Of a stretch of DNA of 27,312 bases, positions 2,694-25,768 are shown one piece after another. The position numbers and the translations under genes are program-made. The DNA is from a virus. Position 1 is the stretch's first letter. The number at the start of each line of letters is the position of its first letter. The stretch spans positions 1 through 27,312 of IMG/VR virus record IMGVR_UViG_3300019487_000085; one strand, written 5' to 3'. A model generated the notes under the pieces. It ran no database searches. It saw only the letters and a program-made list of their open reading frames with translations, and was not told the origin of the DNA.

Positions 2694-2863
2694 GCCCCGG
2701 GTTCGGGCAAACTCGAGACTGGCGATGCCGGTACTGCGGTTGTACGGACTCGTGTGCATGTCCGGGAGGCTGCTCCTGGATCGCGCCGCGGGTCTGTAGT
2801 CGGTGCGCCGGCAATCTCAGCGAGGAGGGACCGGTGCGGTTACCGGAGGCGCCGCGGCGATGA
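2690..2863 (+). CDS. Cys-rich zinc-binding phage protein, 57 aa
   Basis: A small frame that overlaps the parB-like stop (ATGA at 2690-2693) and the start of the next gene (ATGA at 2860-2863), so it is locked into the operon. The product carries CRYCGCTDSCACPGGC followed by a tryptophan and CSRC: seven cysteines in about 25 residues, arranged as two CxxC pairs plus an inner Cys cluster. Short proteins with a CGCT...ACPGGC core are frequent in phage genomes. They are presumed zinc binders of unknown role. Confidence 0.75.
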   Translation: MSPGFGQTRDWRCRYCGCTDSCACPGGCSWIAPRVCSRCAGNLSEEGPVRLPEAPRR

Positions 2864-3759
2864 GCACCACCATCGAATGGACAGACGCGACGTGGAACCC
2901 GATTCGTGGTTGCTCCCTGGTGAGCGCCGGCTGCAAGAACTGTTATGCCATGAAGCAGGCCCACCGATTCAGCGGACCTGGCAAACCATACGAAGGCTTG
3001 ACCGAGATCGGTCCGCACGGGCCACTGTGGACCGGGAAGATCCGGCTGGTGCCCGAGGCGCTGGAGGAGCCGTTGCATTGGAGGAAGCCGCGACGGATCT
3101 TTGTCAATTCCATGAGTGATCTGTTTCACGAGGATGTGCCGGATGAGTTCATTTGTCGCGTATTCGGAGCAATGCTCGCGGCTAGTCGCCAAATTTTTCA
3201 AGTGCTCACAAAACGCCCTGAGAGAATGCAAAAGCTACTCAGGGATATTGGCTTTGCCAACGATGTTGCCGTCTTTGGGAACTGGGGAGAACCGGTTGTG
3301 CCGTGGCCTCTTCCCAACGTCCATCTCGGCGTCTCTATCGAGGACCAGGCCACGGCGGACGAGCGGATTCCGATCTTGTTGCGGACGCCGGCGGCGGTCA
3401 GGTTTGTGAGTTATGAGCCAGCGTTAGGGCCGGTGGATCTCAGTCAATTTATACCTGTTCACGCACATTCGAGTTTTCGCGCTGCCCGCATGGCTAACCA
3501 AAATCTCCCTTGCATCAACTGGGTAATCGTTGGCGGCGAAAGTGGCCCTGGCGCCAGGCCGTGCGATGTAGCCTGGATTCGCTCGATCAAGGACCAATGC
3601 CAGGCGGCGGGAACTAAGCTGTTCGTCAAACAGCTCGGGTCGTATGTGCGAGTGGAGAACGCTGTGGGCGGACTCTCACGACTGCGGTTGCAGGACAAGA
3701 AGGGCGGCGACATTCGAGAGTTCCCCGAAGATCTGCGCGTGCGGGAGTTTCCATGCTGA
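2860..3759 (+). CDS. Phage Gp37/Gp68 family protein (DUF5131), three-Cys motif
   Basis: A 299-residue protein. The opening IEWTDATWNPIRGC with C18, C25 and C28 (C-x6-C-x2-C) is diagnostic of the Gp37/Gp68 (DUF5131) family. Conserved blocks follow: RIFVNSMSDLFHEDVP at about 86-101, QVLTKRPERM, a VHLGVSIEDQ segment, RFVSYEPALGPVDL and WVIVGGESGPGARP. The family resembles radical-SAM-type enzymes with a Cys cluster, but its reaction is not established. ATG 2860 is chosen because it starts at the conserved N terminus and has GGAGG about 10 nt upstream; an upstream in-frame ATG at 2803 would run through the Cys-rich gene. In many genomes the family is adjacent to a TcmP partner gene; none is seen here. 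Confidence 0.88.
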   Translation: MSTTIEWTDATWNPIRGCSLVSAGCKNCYAMKQAHRFSGPGKPYEGLTEIGPHGPLWTGKIRLVPEALEEPLHWRKPRRIFVNSMSDLFHEDVPDEFICRVFGAMLAASRQIFQVLTKRPERMQKLLRDIGFANDVAVFGNWGEPVVPWPLPNVHLGVSIEDQATADERIPILLRTPAAVRFVSYEPALGPVDLSQFIPVHAHSSFRAARMANQNLPCINWVIVGGESGPGARPCDVAWIRSIKDQCQAAGTKLFVKQLGSYVRVENAVGGLSRLRLQDKKGGDIREFPEDLRVREFPC

Positions 3760-4292: not shown

Positions 4293-4676
4293 ATGCCGAG
4301 AGAGCGATCGCCGTCCTACCGGAACTATCCGAAGGATTGGCGTGATGTGAAGGTGCGAAGGATGAGCCTGGCTGCACAGGGAGCGTACCGGGCTATCTGC
4401 GATGACATGTGGAGCGATTCCAAGGACCAATGTTCGGTTCTCGACAATAATAAATTTATTGCGAAAAGTTTAGGCGTGTCTGAGGAGGAATGGTTGGTGC
4501 TCCGAGCGGAGATCCAGAACGAAGCTGAGCCGCTTTTGATGGAAAAAAATGGGCGCCTCTATTCGAAGCGCCTGAAGATCGAAGCGGAGAAGCAGCGTAA
4601 CTACAGGGCGGAACAACAAAAACTGGGAGAAGCAGGGGCACGAAAACGCTGGGGGAAAGGCATCAAGATGCTATAG
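4293..4676 (+). CDS. DUF1376/YdaU-like replication-associated protein
   Basis: A 127-residue protein matching the DUF1376 (YdaU) pattern: YRNYPKDWRDVKVRRMSLAAQGAYRAICDDMW near the N terminus (read in parts), then LGVSEEEWLVL, a GRLYSKRL strand and a basic helical C terminus ending GARKRWGKG. Members are phage or prophage proteins found in replication modules, often beside helicase loaders. ATG 4293 is used because GAAAGG lies 7 nt upstream and the conserved motif begins at residue 9; the frame stays open upstream without support. The TAG stop falls inside the first unit of the iteron array, and the long low-complexity tail common in this family is absent from the frame. Confidence 0.75.
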   Translation: MPRERSPSYRNYPKDWRDVKVRRMSLAAQGAYRAICDDMWSDSKDQCSVLDNNKFIAKSLGVSEEEWLVLRAEIQNEAEPLLMEKNGRLYSKRLKIEAEKQRNYRAEQQKLGEAGARKRWGKGIKML

Positions 4677-4776
4677 GGTACCCTATCCTTACCCTATGGG
4701 GTACCCCATTCTTAGACATGGGGTAGCCCATTCTTAGACATGGGGTAGCCCATTTAAAAACATAGGGTAAGGATAG
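4673..4776. repeat. Iteron array with nested palindromes (candidate origin)
   Basis: Five units begin with AT(A/G)GGGTA at 4673, 4696, 4718, 4740 and 4762, giving spacings of 23, 22, 22 and 22 bp. The first two cores are perfect 14-bp palindromes: ATAGGGTACCCTAT (4673-4686) and ATGGGGTACCCCAT (4696-4709). The outer segments form a perfect 15-bp inverted repeat (CTATCCTTACCCTAT at 4683-4697 against 4762-4776). An AT-rich patch (TTTAAAAA) lies near the right end. The units carry stops in shifting frames because 22 is not a multiple of 3, so the array is not coding. Regular spacing of about two helical turns, next to a replication-type gene, fits an origin or a multi-site operator. Confidence 0.7.
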
Positions 4777-4778
4777 CC

Positions 4779-4843
4779 TTCCGATTCCGATTCCGATTCC
4801 GATTCCGATTCCGATTCCGATTCCGATTCCGATTCCGATTCCG
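4779..4843. repeat. Hexanucleotide microsatellite (TTCCGA)10.8
   Basis: Ten perfect TTCCGA units plus a partial eleventh, immediately after the iteron array. In one forward frame it would read Ser-Asp repeats ending SGEDN and a stop, like the low-complexity tails of some DUF1376 proteins. That frame is closed by a TAG just upstream and is not in phase with the DUF1376 gene, so it is probably non-coding now. Unit number is likely to vary between relatives by slippage. Confidence 0.85.
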
Positions 4844-13428: not shown

Positions 13429-13857
13429 ATGCCAACACAAGCGATTTCTGGATATGGGACACAATTAAAGCGGGGAGATGGGGGAGGTCCAGAAACCTTC
13501 ACCACTGTCGGGGAAGTCCGGTCCATCAGCGGGCCGAGTATGGAAACGGATGAAGCCGATGTGACCACGCACAGCTCGGCAGCTGCCGGAGCCTTTCGGG
13601 AATTCATCCTCACCCTCATCGATGCCGGCACCATCGAGTTTGAAACCAATTATGTGCCGAGCGATCCCACGCATATCGGGATCCGCACCGATTTTCTCGC
13701 CCGCACCAAGCGCAATTGGCAAATTGTGTTGCCCGGTGCGGTGCAGACGATCAGCTTTGCCGCCTATGTGAAGGCGATGCCGTTCGAATTTCCGGTCGAC
13801 GACGCCATCATGCAGAAAATCACGTTACGGTGCACGGGCGCGCCGACGTTCAGTTAA
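13429..13857 (+). CDS. Major tail tube protein
   Basis: A 142-residue beta-rich protein of the lambda gpV-like tail tube type. It opens with ISGYGTQLKRGDGGGPETFTTVGEV (read in parts), a typical N terminus for this family, followed by SISGPSMETDEADVTTHSS, a conserved tube-protein block, and a C-terminal strand pair EFPVDDAIMQKITLRCTGAP. It is a compact version without the Ig-like C-terminal extension of lambda gpV. The ribosome site is AAGGAGG. It polymerises around the tape measure to form the tube. Confidence 0.88.
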   Translation: MPTQAISGYGTQLKRGDGGGPETFTTVGEVRSISGPSMETDEADVTTHSSAAAGAFREFILTLIDAGTIEFETNYVPSDPTHIGIRTDFLARTKRNWQIVLPGAVQTISFAAYVKAMPFEFPVDDAIMQKITLRCTGAPTFS

Positions 13858-13910: not shown

Positions 13911-14273
13911 ATGGGACGCACCACGCTCACCCGCACGACGCCCTTAGGACCCTATCCTAGCTTGCAACCAGCCGCCGATGCGCTGGATGCCGTGATGACC
14001 GCCGCCGACGTGGCGAACGGCAATCAGTTCGTACTCGATGGGCCGGTCATGCTCATCTGTCAGAACACGGACGGGGCTGCTGCACGCACGGTCACCCTCA
14101 CCAGTGCTCCGGATCCTCAAAACCGGAGCGGTGATGTGACGGCCTATTCCATCGGCATCGGAGAAATTGCCCTGTTTCGAATTGACCAGGTTGCCGGATG
14201 GAGACAGACGGACGGCATGTTCTATCTCGCAGGCAGTAACGCCGCACTGAAGTTCGGCATCGCGAGGTTGTAG
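13911..14273 (+). CDS. Hypothetical structural-type protein, 120 aa
   Basis: A 120-residue protein with an N-terminal PSLQPAADALDAVMTAADVANGNQF helix region (read in parts) followed by beta strands (FVLDGPVMLICQNT, ARTVTLTSAP, TAYSIGIGEIALFRID) and an aromatic closing segment WRQTDGMFYLAGSN. The pattern resembles small jelly-roll or Ig-like virion accessory proteins that siphophages encode near the tube gene. Preceded by AGGAGG. A tail- or head-decoration role is plausible but not shown. Confidence 0.6.
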   Translation: MGRTTLTRTTPLGPYPSLQPAADALDAVMTAADVANGNQFVLDGPVMLICQNTDGAAARTVTLTSAPDPQNRSGDVTAYSIGIGEIALFRIDQVAGWRQTDGMFYLAGSNAALKFGIARL

Positions 14274-14275
14274 CG

Positions 14276-14692
14276 ATGGAACACGCCCATGAGTTTTTGA
14301 GTAAGGATGAAATTCTCGGGATGGACGACATTCCCATGGAGGCCGTCACCATCCCTGAATGGAAACACCGCACGGTGCTGGTCTGTGGGCTGACGGCCAC
14401 GGCCAAGAATGCCTATCAGGCCTCACTGGTGACGATGCACGGCAAGACGCGCAAGGTCACGCTCGAGCATGCGACCGCCAAACTCTTGGTCCGCACACTC
14501 GTGGATGCGACGCGACAACCCCTCTTCACGGAGTCGGACATTCTGAAGCTCGGCACGAAGAGTGCCGCGGTCTTGGAGCGGCTCGCGAAAGTGGCGAGCC
14601 GGCTGTCCGGTATGGACGAGGAGGAGAACGAGCAACTGTTAAAAAACTCCGAAGCAGCCCAGAGCGACGATTTGCCTACCGTCTCGCTCTGA
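14276..14692 (+). CDS. Tail assembly chaperone, G-like
   Basis: A 138-residue product read without frameshifting. It lies between the tail tube and tape measure genes, the position of lambda G and its equivalents. It has an acidic N terminus (EFLSKDEILGMDDI), a central core KHRTVLVCGLTATAKNAYQAS and an acidic C terminus (GMDEEENEQL). Near its end the codons read TTA AAA AAC, which holds the heptamer A AAA AAC. The 0-frame stop is at 14690-14692, inside a predicted hairpin. The chaperone coats the tape measure during tail assembly. Confidence 0.85.
   Translation: MEHAHEFLSKDEILGMDDIPMEAVTIPEWKHRTVLVCGLTATAKNAYQASLVTMHGKTRKVTLEHATAKLLVRTLVDATRQPLFTESDILKLGTKSAAVLERLAKVASRLSGMDEEENEQLLKNSEAAQSDDLPTVSL
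14619..14691 (+). promoter_or_regulatory. -1 programmed ribosomal frameshift cassette
   Basis: Three elements are visible. A Shine-Dalgarno-like AGGAGG lies at 14619-14624. The slippery heptamer A AAA AAC lies at 14641-14647, in phase with the G frame. A hairpin lies downstream: CAGAGCG (14660-14666) pairs with CGCTCTG (14685-14691), extended by ACG/CGT with a 2-nt bulge. The spacer between slip site and stem is 12 nt. The arrangement resembles the dnaX-type signal and lambda-type G/GT control. Confidence 0.82.
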
Positions 14693-15009
14693 GTTTGGGG
14701 GAACCGAACCCGGACAGGCTGCTGTCCAGAATGTCGGGCCGACGGTTGGCGGAGTGGCAGGCGTATTGGCAGGTGGAACCGTTCGGCGCGCCGGCTGAGT
14801 TTTGGCGAGCCGGATTGATTGCGAGCCTGATCGCGAATGTCAATCGAGCGAAGAATTCAGACCGCGTGATGAAGCCGGAAGACTATATGCCGAGCAGCAT
14901 GACCGCACAGGAGCAGGAACGGGACGCGCCGGATCTGTCCGAGCGCGTCCTTCGGACGTTTCACGACTTAGCCGAACTGAGCAAGCATGGCCAACAAACT
15001 CGTGCTTGA
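14647..15009 (+). CDS. T-like domain of the G-T frameshift fusion
   Basis: The -1 frame downstream of the slippery site encodes about 120 residues: LRSSPERRFAYRLALSLGEP onward, with MSGRRLAEWQAYWQVEPFG, the characteristic motif of T-like/DUF4035 tail assembly proteins. No ribosome site or start suits independent expression. The expected product is the fusion join(14276..14647,14647..15009), about 244 residues, which would recruit tail tube subunits to the chaperoned tape measure. The frame is also open upstream of the slip site (from 14359), as overlap only. It ends 23 nt into the tape measure gene. Confidence 0.85.
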   Translation, partial: LRSSPERRFAYRLALSLGEPNPDRLLSRMSGRRLAEWQAYWQVEPFGAPAEFWRAGLIASLIANVNRAKNSDRVMKPEDYMPSSMTAQEQERDAPDLSERVLRTFHDLAELSKHGQQTRA

Positions 15010-17107
15010 AGTGGTTGCGGATTCCAACGGGTTTGTCAAAGGACTGAACCAGGCGCAGACGCATCTGGAGAAATTCATGAAGGCCTCGGATGCCGCCGGC
15101 GCGTCAGTGGGTGGGGGCCTCAATCGGGCACTTGATACGTTTCGCAATCTGGCGGGCGGTGGAGCCAATGCCGCCGGCGTGCTGGCCGGCGCCTTCGTCG
15201 CGGCGACGACGGCCGCGTTCGGGATGACGGTCCAAGCCGGGAAAATCGCCGAACAAACCGAGCAGCTCAAACAGAAGACCGGCCTTGCCGCGGTCAGCCT
15301 CGAAGGGATGTCCGTCGCGATGGCCCGGCACGGCCTCGAGTCCGGCAGCATTGCCGTCGCGATGAAGAGTCTGTCGAAAGAACTGGTCGGTGTCTCGCAA
15401 GGCACCCAGAGCAGCATCAAACTCTTTCAGTCCCTCGGGGTCAGCTTGCAGACCGTCGAGAAAGGCACCGGGGCCACACTCCGGGCGATCGCGGATGCCT
15501 TCCAGCAGATGCCAGACGGCGCACAGAAGGCCACGTTTGCCGTGGAACTCTTTGGCAAGTCCGGGCTGGACCTCATCCCCATTCTGAACACAGGCGCGGC
15601 GGGTCTCGATGAGGCGATGAAGAAGTCGGCGGAGTTCGGCTTGATCTTGAGCGACACCGCGAGAGGGGATCTCACGGTGTTCGATGATGCGATGGATGAT
15701 CTCGGTTCGGCGCTGAACGGGTTCGCCATGCAAGTTGGTGTGGCCTTCGCGCCGTCACTCACGGCCCTCGTCACAGCCTTTACCGATGTCATCGTGTTCA
15801 CCAAAAACGTCTTCAACCAGTTTGCCGATGCCGCGTCGACATTGACCATTCGTCTGTCCGCGATGGTCGCCTCAGTGCAGGTCATGGCGAATACGCTGTT
15901 CTCCCTCAAGGCGTTCTCGAAAGCCGCGTGGGAAGAGACGATCAACCACGTCAAGGCAATTGACCAATGGGCGGCGGCGGAAATCACAGGGGTCCAGGCC
16001 GCACGGGAATCCGAGACATCGCTGGCCGCGCTCGCGGGCAAACACTTGGATGCGGCCCAAGCCGCTCAAGTCCATGTGGCCAGTCAAGAGCGATTGGGGC
16101 AACAGATCGTCGCCGCGACGAAGATTCAGCTCGCGCAAGCGGCGGCCGCCGGCAAACAGCAGGAACGAATGGGGGCAGACATCGTCTCAGGGACGCAGAT
16201 CATGCTGAGTCAGGAGGCCGCAGAAGGCGACCGGCAAAAGCGACTGGCGCAAGGGATTATCAGCACGACGCAGATTCAGTTGGAGCAGGATCGTCAACGG
16301 GGAGAGTCACAGGAGCGATTGGGGCGGGATATTGTCGCGTCCACCCAGATCCAGTTGGCGGAGGCGTCGAAAGCGAATGCGTTTTGGCGGGCGCAGTTGG
16401 AGGCGCTCGTGGATAGCAACGCCTTCTCGATCGCGCAGATCACCACCATGTGGAGCGGACAATTGGCGAATGCCATCGTGAATGGTGGGACCTTCGTGAA
16501 AGAAGCCTGGCAGGCGACACAGGTGGCGATCATCCAAGGGGCCATCAATACCACCATCCAATATCTCGCACAGTTGGCGCTGCGGTCTGCGGCGGATAAA
16601 GCGGCCGCGATGGGGAGCGGGGCGGTGTGGATGGGAGCGTCCAAAGTGGCGATGGGGGCGTTTGCCGCCGTGGCTGGCGGGATCAAGACGATGTTTGCCA
16701 CCGTGCTCATGCCCGCGATCATTGCGGTCGGCAAGTTCATCATGGGGGTGTTGACGGCCATCGCGCTCGCGATGAAAAAAACCATTTTCGGGATTCCGTT
16801 AGGGGTGGCCATTCTCGCCGGTGTGGTGGCCATCGGGGCGGCATTAGCCGCATCCGGCGCCATTAAGTTTGCCGATGGTGGGATTGCCACGGGCCCGACG
16901 TTGGGGATGGTCGGAGAAGCGGGATCGAGTGAGGCCGTCATTCCCTTGAACAAACGCGGCGCGGCCTTCATGCAAGAGGCCCTCGGGATGCCGCACGAGG
17001 GATCGGGATCGTTGATCGTGCCCGTCTACCTGGATGGCAGGGAGATTGCCCGCTCAGTGGTAGAAGAGCTGCCGAGCGCATGGCGCAGGGCGGGGTTGCC
17101 CATATGA
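14987..17107 (+). CDS. Tape measure protein
   Basis: A 706-residue tape measure protein that sets tail length. An N-terminal helical part (VEVVADSNGFVKGLNQAQ-like, beginning MANKLVLEVVADSNG) is followed by Ala/Gly-rich segments, a TMP-type core LKQKTGLAAVSLEGMSVAMA with repeated helices, and a set of four 25-residue repeats at about 366-465. Hydrophobic, membrane-type stretches lie at about 540-620 (MFATVLMPAIIAVGKFIMGV, then GVAILAGVVAIGAALAASGA). The conserved ending is FADGGIATGPTLGMVGEAG then EAVIPL, typical of siphophage tape measures. It begins inside the T-like frame. At roughly 1.5 angstrom per residue the tail would be about 100 nm. Confidence 0.93.
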   Translation: MANKLVLEVVADSNGFVKGLNQAQTHLEKFMKASDAAGASVGGGLNRALDTFRNLAGGGANAAGVLAGAFVAATTAAFGMTVQAGKIAEQTEQLKQKTGLAAVSLEGMSVAMARHGLESGSIAVAMKSLSKELVGVSQGTQSSIKLFQSLGVSLQTVEKGTGATLRAIADAFQQMPDGAQKATFAVELFGKSGLDLIPILNTGAAGLDEAMKKSAEFGLILSDTARGDLTVFDDAMDDLGSALNGFAMQVGVAFAPSLTALVTAFTDVIVFTKNVFNQFADAASTLTIRLSAMVASVQVMANTLFSLKAFSKAAWEETINHVKAIDQWAAAEITGVQAARESETSLAALAGKHLDAAQAAQVHVASQERLGQQIVAATKIQLAQAAAAGKQQERMGADIVSGTQIMLSQEAAEGDRQKRLAQGIISTTQIQLEQDRQRGESQERLGRDIVASTQIQLAEASKANAFWRAQLEALVDSNAFSIAQITTMWSGQLANAIVNGGTFVKEAWQATQVAIIQGAINTTIQYLAQLALRSAADKAAAMGSGAVWMGASKVAMGAFAAVAGGIKTMFATVLMPAIIAVGKFIMGVLTAIALAMKKTIFGIPLGVAILAGVVAIGAALAASGAIKFADGGIATGPTLGMVGEAGSSEAVIPLNKRGAAFMQEALGMPHEGSGSLIVPVYLDGREIARSVVEELPSAWRRAGLPI
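16082..16381 (+). repeat. Four 75-bp (25-residue) tandem repeats in the tape measure gene
   Basis: Units start at 16082, 16157, 16232 and 16307. Each encodes a variant of (S/Q/R)Q(E/K)RLG..I(V/I)..T.IQL.Q. followed by a charged or alanine-rich end. The units are diverged in DNA but keep exact 25-residue phasing, consistent with older tandem duplication of a helical segment. Confidence 0.8.
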
Positions 17108-20432: not shown

Positions 20433-20882
20433 ATGAGCGAGACGACGAGGACGAAGGAATGGATTCGCCATGGTGAGTGCAATCAGTGCGGGGACTGTTG
20501 TCGACAGGCCACCAATTGTCTCTCCCTGCTGGTCCCGATCGGCGATGAAGCGTACGGCCGGGTTCGGTATGGCGCGCCGCATCCGCAGTTTCGTGGGAAC
20601 GATGGCGCTCGCGTCTTCCACGTGCGAGGGCCAGTGCTCTTGCCCTGTCCGAAGCTCGCCGGCGATCGCTGTTCCATCCATGAGACCAAACCACAATACT
20701 GCATCGACAATCCGTCAACGCCCGAGGACATCGAAGGGACGCGCTGTTCCTACTGGTTTGTGCATCGTGACACTGGTGAGGTGCGCGACGCCGGACACGT
20801 CGCGACAGCAGCGAGCGTGAGAACACTGTCAGCAACAGAGGAGGGTGCGTATGCGACTCAAACGACATTACCGCAGAGATGA
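20433..20882 (+). CDS. YkgJ-family cysteine-cluster protein
   Basis: A 149-residue protein with the CxxCxxCC signature at residues 16-23 (CNQCGDCC) and the companion PCPKLAGDRCSIHETKPQYC at about 71-90. Together they define the YkgJ/UPF0153-type zinc- or iron-binding cluster family. The biochemical role of the family is not established. It is unusual between tail-fibre genes and may be a moron. Its 3' end overlaps the next gene by 32 nt; the last 15 or so residues are low in conserved features. Confidence 0.85.
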   Translation: MSETTRTKEWIRHGECNQCGDCCRQATNCLSLLVPIGDEAYGRVRYGAPHPQFRGNDGARVFHVRGPVLLPCPKLAGDRCSIHETKPQYCIDNPSTPEDIEGTRCSYWFVHRDTGEVRDAGHVATAASVRTLSATEEGAYATQTTLPQR

Positions 20883-24970: not shown

Positions 24971-25768
24971 ATGGCTATTTATCCGAATAGAAAATTCACC
25001 TCGAGGGGCTGGTTCAGCCGGTTCGCGACCCCTGTGTCGTGGGTCTGGGAGAACCTGGGTGAGCAGATTGCTCCGAATACGGTCACGCTCGGACAGGCGA
25101 CCGAAACGGATCTGGCTCAGGCGATCGCCAGGCACAAGCAGAAGACGCTGGGGTTGTGCCTGGAAACGGATCTCGCGCAGGCGATTGCGAGGCACAAGCA
25201 GAAGACGTTGGGGTTGTGCCTGGAAACGGATCTCGCGCAGCCAGTCACCGTCGATACGGGCGGGCTGGTGGCGACCGTCAATCAAGTCATCGAGACGGAT
25301 ACCGCGCAGCTCGTCAGCTGGTCACCCAAGCGCCGGCTCGTCAACCAGACGGTTGAGACCGATCTCGCCCAGTCCCTCGCGCACACCAAGGTTAACACAC
25401 TCGCGCAGGCGAGCGAGACCGATCAAGCGCAGCCGCTCACGCATCGCAAGATGAAAACATTGGGCATTCCGCTCGAAACGGATCTGGCTCAGGCGATCGC
25501 GAGGCACAAGCAGAAGACGCTGGGGTTGTGCCTGGAAACGGATCTTGTGCAGGCCATTCTGTGGGCTCCGAAACGCCGGATCATCGGTGACGTCGTGGAA
25601 GTCGACTTGGCGTTCCCGATCACGGTGTCGGTCGGGGAGAAATTGGTGAATATCGTGCGGGTGGTCCTCGAGCTGCGGTCCGCCGTACCTCGAGTCGTGT
25701 CGGTCACCAGTGAGACCGGTGTGGTGGTCGAGGTGTCTCACGCGGTCTCGCGCACGGTGAGGGTGTAG
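24971..25768 (+). CDS. Tandem-repeat protein (ETDLAQ repeats)
   Basis: A 265-residue protein. After a 44-residue N-terminal region (with SRGWFSRFATPVSWVWENLG) come nine units of 20-23 residues, each opening with an ETDLAQ variant and continuing with a basic stretch (such as AIARHKQKTLG or SWSPKRRLV). The C-terminal 50 residues are Val-rich. Alternating acidic and basic short segments suggest a beta-solenoid or extended fibre. Repeats of the ETD.AQ type occur in phage structural regions, in my recollection, without known function. It starts 3 nt after the preceding gene and precedes the BppU-like gene. Confidence 0.75.
   Translation: MAIYPNRKFTSRGWFSRFATPVSWVWENLGEQIAPNTVTLGQATETDLAQAIARHKQKTLGLCLETDLAQAIARHKQKTLGLCLETDLAQPVTVDTGGLVATVNQVIETDTAQLVSWSPKRRLVNQTVETDLAQSLAHTKVNTLAQASETDQAQPLTHRKMKTLGIPLETDLAQAIARHKQKTLGLCLETDLVQAILWAPKRRIIGDVVEVDLAFPITVSVGEKLVNIVRVVLELRSAVPRVVSVTSETGVVVEVSHAVSRTVRV
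25103..25597 (+). repeat. Tandem 60-69 bp repeats inside the ETDLAQ gene
   Basis: Unit starts are 25103, 25163, 25223 (69 bp), 25292 (63 bp), 25355, 25415, 25475 and 25535 (63 bp), and a diverged ninth unit begins at 25598. Units 1, 2 and 7 are nearly identical in DNA although unit 7 is separated from the others by diverged units, which indicates recombination or copying within the array. Confidence 0.85.

Follow-up and report, generated by a model that had tools for sequence, protein, structure and literature searches.

Introduction

The G/GT frameshift of tail assembly chaperone (TAC) genes is a textbook case and one of the most widespread recoding events. Two other bacterial systems have to be considered beside it, IS911 of the IS3 family, which slips on the heptamer A AAA AAG, and the E. 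coli dnaX gene, in which a Shine-Dalgarno (SD) sequence lies about 10 nt upstream. In lambda, G is located on the tape measure protein, T recruits the tube protein, and the G:GT ratio is about 30:1 (PMC5009743; this and the other sources are cited throughout for the parts of them that were available). The lambda heptamer is G GGA AAG (PMC7618472), and in HK97-like TAC genes a frameshifting level of 6-7% was measured (PMC3711429). Some tailed-phage shifts, as described in the available part of PMC5009743, seemingly need no stimulator. Conserved hairpins were reported in three of five phage clusters (PMC4066793), and structured phage signals are therefore not new as such. Stimulators in the form of a three-way junction are known from IS911 (PMC5009743), where this RNA, with its stem-loops, lies downstream of the heptamer and an SD-like sequence upstream (PMC5009743, PMC4066793). 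The dnaX signal also combines an SD-like sequence with a downstream RNA structure, but this structure is a simple stem-loop, the heptamer is A AAA AAG, the efficiency reaches about 50%, and the shifted frame ends one codon later (PMC5009743). According to the available part of PMC4066793, the spacer before a downstream structure is usually 5-8 nt long, SD-like words 6-17 nt upstream fall in a range treated as experimentally proven, and A_AAA_AAC is a low-efficiency heptamer in E. coli. In searches of an open-access library, which lacks most subscription papers, no three-way-junction stimulator for a phage tail chaperone was seen.

The virus record analyzed here (the window) is a stretch of 27,312 bases. 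The comparison with its relatives makes it quite probable that it carries a G/GT-type -1 frameshift in a siphophage tail-chaperone gene with a three-way-junction stimulator.

Results

Reading frames and slippery heptamer

The features of the locus are as follows.

13429-13857, upstream of G: major tail protein (lambda-like tail tube; PF16461, phrog_158)
13911-14273: ORF between the tail tube gene and G, no convincing family match
14276-14692, + strand: gene G, tail assembly chaperone, 138 aa (phrog_344, E 7.7e-24)
14618-14626, + strand: SD-like GAGGAGGAG (AGGAGG = 14619-14624); distance to the heptamer 14-16 nt, strongest anti-SD duplex -11.7 kcal/mol
14641-14647, + strand: slippery heptamer A AAA AAC, in phase with G and near its end
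14647-15009, + strand: T, read in the -1 frame, contributing 120 aa past the shift (PF06223 Phage_tail_T, E 8.9e-15; phrog_337)
14690-14692, + strand: 0-frame stop of G, TGA (from the reading frames)
14987-17107, + strand: tape measure protein gene, starting within the end of T (phrog_8462, E 1.3e-21)

The gene order is MTP-ORF-G-T-TMP, with G placed between the tail tube and tape measure genes. The match of G to PF06222 (E 8e-5) is slightly below the curated cut-off. The ORF at 13911-14273 is conserved at the corresponding position in L195, L196, L074, L115, and L181 (48-65%). An earlier note on this DNA, made from the sequence alone, had proposed that the heptamer stands in the right phase and that the -1 frame reads into the motif MSGRRLAEW, and both statements hold: the -1 frame is open from 14647 to 15009 and reads LRSSPERRFAYRLALSLG...MSGRRLAEW. 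The label DUF4035, which the note attached to T, was not supported; Pfam gives PF06223, a match found in all 10 members of alignment A1. The predicted GT fusion comprises 124 + 120 = 244 aa. The distance from the heptamer to the 0-frame stop is 42 nt, and it is the same in all 18 members of the clade to which the window belongs (clade A).

Relatives were gathered by the T protein alone, without regard to the heptamer. This gave 80 loci, of which 78 entered the count (L117 and L132 are copies of contigs already counted) and 64 were distinct. An in-phase X XXY YYZ heptamer with an open T frame after it was present at the junction in 58 of the 64, being AAAAAAC in 46 of these 58, and was missing in the remaining 6. 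The background frequency of such in-phase heptamers was 3 in 5250 codon positions upstream in G (59 loci). Set against this background, the heptamer conservation, a check which the earlier note had itself suggested, indicates a lambda G/GT-type -1 frameshift of the ordinary kind. Moreover, a scan for the pattern of hairpin 1 (see below), blind to the heptamer, matched 17 contigs, and AAAAAAC was found in every one of them. In the distant loci L134, L138, L149, L157, L158, L167, L168, and L193, the 0-frame stop directly abuts the heptamer (e.g., A AAA AAC TGA), so that G and GT would diverge right past the slip site.

The note had named a real start for the T frame among the findings that would speak against the fusion. 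In 14 of 18 clade members, the stretch from the preceding stop of the -1 frame to T codon 27 contains no ATG, GTG, or TTG, and the conserved beginning of T could thus be reached there only via frameshifting. In the window, T codon 17 is TTG (14695) and codon 29 is ATG (14731). Codon 17 is CTG or CTC in 13 of 15 sequences, and no more than 12 of the 15 have ATG at codon 29. A G-T tail chaperone fusion via a -1 frameshift, as the note had proposed, is therefore well supported by the gene families, the gene order, the conservation of the heptamer, and the lack of a T start; the frames, the families, and the conserved heptamer are established by comparison of sequences. The warning that automated annotation may miss such fusions was fair: in the related TAC of Streptomyces phage Rooney, T is annotated as a separate gene, and in phage Dubu as a join.

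RNA structure downstream of the heptamer

The region past the heptamer is predicted to fold into a three-way junction, the elements of which are given below.

14648-14653, + strand: spacer, 6 nt (alignment A3 and structure)
14654-14659, + strand: closing stem, 5' arm GCAGCC, partner 14717-14722; 100% of cells paired (17 sequences)
14660-14691, + strand: hairpin 1, 14660-14669 with 14680-14683 and 14686-14691; 98.2% of cells paired
14693-14715, + strand: hairpin 2, 14693-14699 with 14709-14715; 97.5% of cells paired; coding for T only
14717-14722, + strand: closing stem, 3' arm GGCTGC; conservation falls off directly 3' of this arm

The whole element covers 14654-14722 and begins 6 nt past the heptamer, within the usual 5-8 nt (PMC4066793, available part); hairpin 1 alone would start 12 nt away. 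The earlier note had described a 7+3 hairpin at the latter distance which spans the 0-frame stop. This hairpin exists (14660-14669 with 14680-14691), its 3' arm ends at TGA 14690-14692, and its conservation, also named by the note as a check, extends to all 18 clade members; it forms one arm of the predicted three-way junction.

The same three-way junction was obtained from single-sequence folding, from RNAalifold (15 relatives), and from pair counts (17 sequences). In the latter, 98.5% of 391 cells were paired, and sliding the partners by 1-3 columns lowered the value to 26-43%, a control that is biased towards this structure because the structure was derived from the same sequences. For the 69-nt element, minimum-energy folding yields the three-way junction in all 17 sequences and in the later-found L181, so that it is predicted in 18 of 18. 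The pairing of hairpin 2 in the minimum-energy fold is shifted in L002, L008, and L028. With 120 nt of downstream context, the mean pair probability of the closing stem was 0.41 in the window, 0.01 in L002, and 0.66-1.00 in the other 15. The folding energy of the plain 73-nt stretch 14648-14720 of the window gave a modest z-score of -1.56, and the exact element, whose bounds were picked after the fact, gave -4.15. For an 80-nt stretch, the clade mean was -2.38, with 12 of 18 members below -2, while 41 other loci had a mean of -1.09, with 7 of 41 below -2; these others are a non-random set chosen for a heptamer at the same place, from which clade A copies and duplicates were removed and in which L115 was kept. 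No Rfam family was found in the window at the gathering threshold.

Selection on the RNA

Mean nucleotide identity was 0.905 within the 83-nt element (15 sequences, 105 pairs), and in flanks of equal length it was 0.684 upstream and 0.682 downstream. The codon test also used 15 of the 17 sequences; L008 and L017 were left out, because the contig ends within their T. Past the 0-frame stop, in T codons 16-26, the same synonym was used in 760 of 973 same-residue pairs (0.781), and from codon 27 on in 1944 of 4059 (0.479). Shuffling of synonyms within each sequence gave a null value of 0.380 +/- 0.026 with a maximum of 0.474 in 500, but the proper baseline for related sequences is 0.479 rather than the shuffle. 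The comparison thus establishes a synonymous constraint and a conserved, though predicted, RNA fold.

The substitutions within the stems point in the same direction. The closing stem of L082 is GCAACC/GGTTGC instead of the GCAGCC/GGCTGC of the others, a double compensatory change with A-U for G-C; its nearest relative (L005/L022) has the common form, which indicates one compensatory event. Pair 32-47 of alignment A3, in hairpin 1, is A-U in 8 sequences, G-C in 4, G-U in 4, and unpaired in 1. In L181, the protein sequence PERR is changed to PDER and the bases of hairpin 1 are locally rearranged, yet the hairpin reforms at the same place. Changes on both sides were found in only 2 of 23 pairs, and the covariation is thin because the element hardly varies. 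Taken together, a structured stimulator at the junction is very likely, and the three-armed fold probably tunes the frequency of slipping.

The SD-like sequence

The AGGAGG named in the earlier note is present upstream of the heptamer, though 16 nt separate the two, close to the upper limit of the 6-17 nt given in the available part of PMC4066793. The window is an exception in this respect, combining this strong distant site with a weak near one, and its relatives favor closer spacing. An SD-like word within 6-17 nt (PMC4066793, available part) was found in all 17 clade members, but synonymous shuffles gave 15.7 (P 0.21), because the glutamate-rich protein yields such words anyway. The simple presence of an SD-like word was therefore dropped as evidence of conservation, and tests of pairing energy and of GAG codons were used instead. 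Anti-SD pairing at 2-8 nt was stronger than in shuffles (P 0.013; 0 of 300 with a slightly different set and shuffle), and in a 4-14 nt window it was not significant in the clade (P 0.083). Of the glutamate codons at positions -3 to -6, all 37 are GAG, whereas in the rest of G this holds for 71 of 106 (Fisher p 9e-6, with related rows). These sequence-based tests indicate selection at close spacing on the SD side.

Relatives, alternative arrangements and host

A T match was found in 5 of 175 Nitrospira-family genomes. Two of these loci, L092 and L093, encode T proteins 55% and 53% identical to that of the window, carry a run of 8 A (heptamer A AAA AAA), and lack the fold, with 20-22 bits in the R1 model. 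L094 has AAAAAAC and lacks the fold (30 bits). The element is missing in these three relatives by T protein and is thus not obligatory. L095, which belongs to the same genus as the Nitrospira MAG, and L115, a viral contig, have the heptamer A AAA AAT, and their best fold is one long hairpin that starts within about 5 nt of it. A reading of L095 as a clear three-way junction, its closing stem shifted in register, was downgraded, as a single hairpin has the minimum energy when more context is folded. In the T tree, a weakly supported branch joins L092, L093, L095, and L115 to clade A, and L094 lies elsewhere. A single origin of the element is not resolved by this tree, on which clade A needs 2 changes; 13% of the bootstrap trees recover clade A as one group.

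A wider set of 58 contigs has AAAAAACTCCGANNCNGNCCAGAGCG in common. It was suspected that the same RNA occurs across this set, but the idea was dropped, because most members lack it by their R1 scores: clade members reached 103.6-116.9 bits, L095 65.5, and all other sources at most 42 (51 loci searched). A CCAG-GC/GC-CTGG hairpin common to the wide set was weighed by eye and also dropped, as many members break it. BLASTN of a 301-base junction against 50,697 phage records gave no match at E<=1, and a 106-base junction gave only short weak matches at E<=10, two of which lie at TAC genes, in the Streptomyces phages Rooney and Gibson. In Planctomycetota genomes, T matches were found in 23 of 392 and were mostly weak, and the strict motif at five such loci gave nothing usable; L074 lies in a contig binned as Phycisphaerales. 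The prophage-like stretch L073 in a Nitrospira MAG is 84.5% identical to the window in the tail tube protein, 71.5% in G, and 60% in T. These protein identities make a Nitrospira host likely, and the virus of the window probably infects Nitrospira.

Discussion

Compared with lambda, the locus has the same gene order, homologous G and T parts, a -1 shift near the end of G, and an implied low copy number of GT. It differs from lambda in the heptamer, which is G GGA AAG there and A AAA AAC here, and in the conserved branched RNA downstream. The earlier note had placed the layout closer to dnaX than to lambda. The part of this claim that concerns a structured stimulator is very likely correct, and dnaX shares with the window an A-rich heptamer, an SD-like sequence upstream, and RNA structure downstream. 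However, the best-supported fold here is branched rather than a simple stem-loop, the heptamer is A AAA AAC and not A AAA AAG, and the shifted frame adds a domain instead of ending one codon later. The AGGAGG of the window lies 16 nt upstream, compared with about 10 nt for the SD of dnaX, and relatives favor closer sites. The layout resembles IS911 more than dnaX, by description, since a three-way junction is predicted 6 nt after the heptamer in 18 of 18 clade members; SD-like words lie upstream as well, though about as often in synonymous shuffles. Unlike in IS911, the product is a tail chaperone and not a transposase, the heptamers differ, and the site does not lie between orfA and orfB of an IS3-family element, as phage tail genes are present on both sides.

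Several other explanations of the conserved sequence have to be weighed. A plain G/GT frameshift without a functional RNA, in which nucleotide conservation only reflects two overlapping frames, seems unlikely to us. The 42 nt past the heptamer are indeed coded in both frames, the loop of hairpin 1 is conserved there, PERR and QS motifs are kept in distant relatives that lack the fold, and some tailed-phage shifts seem stimulator-free (PMC5009743, available part). However, T codons 16-26, which are beyond the overlap, are still frozen at synonymous sites, the conservation stops at the closing stem, and L092 and L093, with similar T proteins, have quite different DNA. The view of the earlier note, a simple dnaX-like cassette in which only the SD-like sequence and hairpin 1 matter, would agree with the presence of hairpin 1 in every clade member and with the one long hairpin apparently used by L095 and L115. 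It has only a small likelihood, as hairpin 2 and the closing stem are equally conserved, with synonymous freezing and a compensatory pair, hairpin 1 alone is 12 nt off, outside the 4-10 nt rule given in the available part of PMC4066793, and the AGGAGG of the window is 16 nt away.

Translation of T from its own start (e.g., ATG 14731 or TTG 14695), which would require no frameshift, could rely on the candidate codons 17 and 29 of the window and on the separate T gene annotated in phage Rooney. We regard it as highly improbable, because the conservation of T in the -1 frame already begins at codon 1, ahead of these candidates, the ATG of codon 29 is not constant, and most clade members are startless before codon 27. 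Transcriptional slippage on the A run instead of ribosomal frameshifting could be considered in view of the 8 consecutive A of L092 and L093, which lack the fold. Such slippage usually requires longer runs than the 6 A present in the window and its clade, and both the structure 6 nt downstream and the upstream SD preference would be roleless; the chance that it accounts for this locus is slight.

The preferred reading, a ribosomal -1 frameshift stimulated by the three-way junction, would work in the following way. Most ribosomes would end G at 14692. A minority, with Lys-tRNA on AAA and Asn-tRNA on AAC, would meet the three-way junction 6 nt ahead, be held by it, and stall, after which both tRNAs, or the P-site tRNA alone, would re-pair one base back on A AAA AAC. 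Translation would then proceed into T and yield the 244-aa GT fusion. By analogy with lambda, G may coat the tape measure protein and the T domain may recruit the tail tube protein. The low efficiency of A_AAA_AAC in E. coli (PMC4066793, available part) would account for the need for a strong stimulator; the branched RNA would raise slippage at this weak heptamer and so set the G:GT ratio, and in most relatives the SD-like stretch behind the ribosome may assist it. Actual frameshifting, its efficiency, and its stimulation by the RNA are what we infer from the comparison. In evolutionary terms, we see an even chance that these probable Nitrospira phages evolved a three-way-junction stimulator independently of IS911, making the weak A AAA AAC a set-point of the G:GT ratio, and that near relatives replaced it, L095 and L115 by a long hairpin and L092 and L093 by a longer A run, as interchangeable solutions to one dosage problem.

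The clade of this locus provides strong comparative evidence that a phage tail chaperone can have a complex stimulator, while its close relatives lack it or have another. This natural series allows the trade-offs between RNA structure, heptamer strength, and SD spacing to be studied at one protein ratio. Moreover, a 95-nt covariance model was obtained, which can be used to find and annotate such fusions.

Other features of the window

A ParB-like gene (PF02195, PF17762; 1221-2693) and a DUF5131 gene (2803-3759) are located at the left end of the window, and the product of the latter shares 59% identity with a protein of L195, a stretch of the Nitrospira MAG. The hexamer TTCCGA is repeated in 10.8 perfect copies at 4779-4843, next to a 22-bp repeat present three to four times (4673-4769); such perfection in a simple repeat is unusual for a phage. 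The ORF at 20433-20882 has a weak match to a CxxCxxCC zinc/iron-chelating domain (PF03692, slightly below the cut-off) and is 67.6% identical to an ORF in the Nitrospira MAG prophage stretch L195. Within the ORF at 24971-25768, a probable virion protein, a 60-bp direct repeat (25103-25240; 2.3 copies, 93%) encodes ETDLAQAIARHKQKTLGLC repeats.
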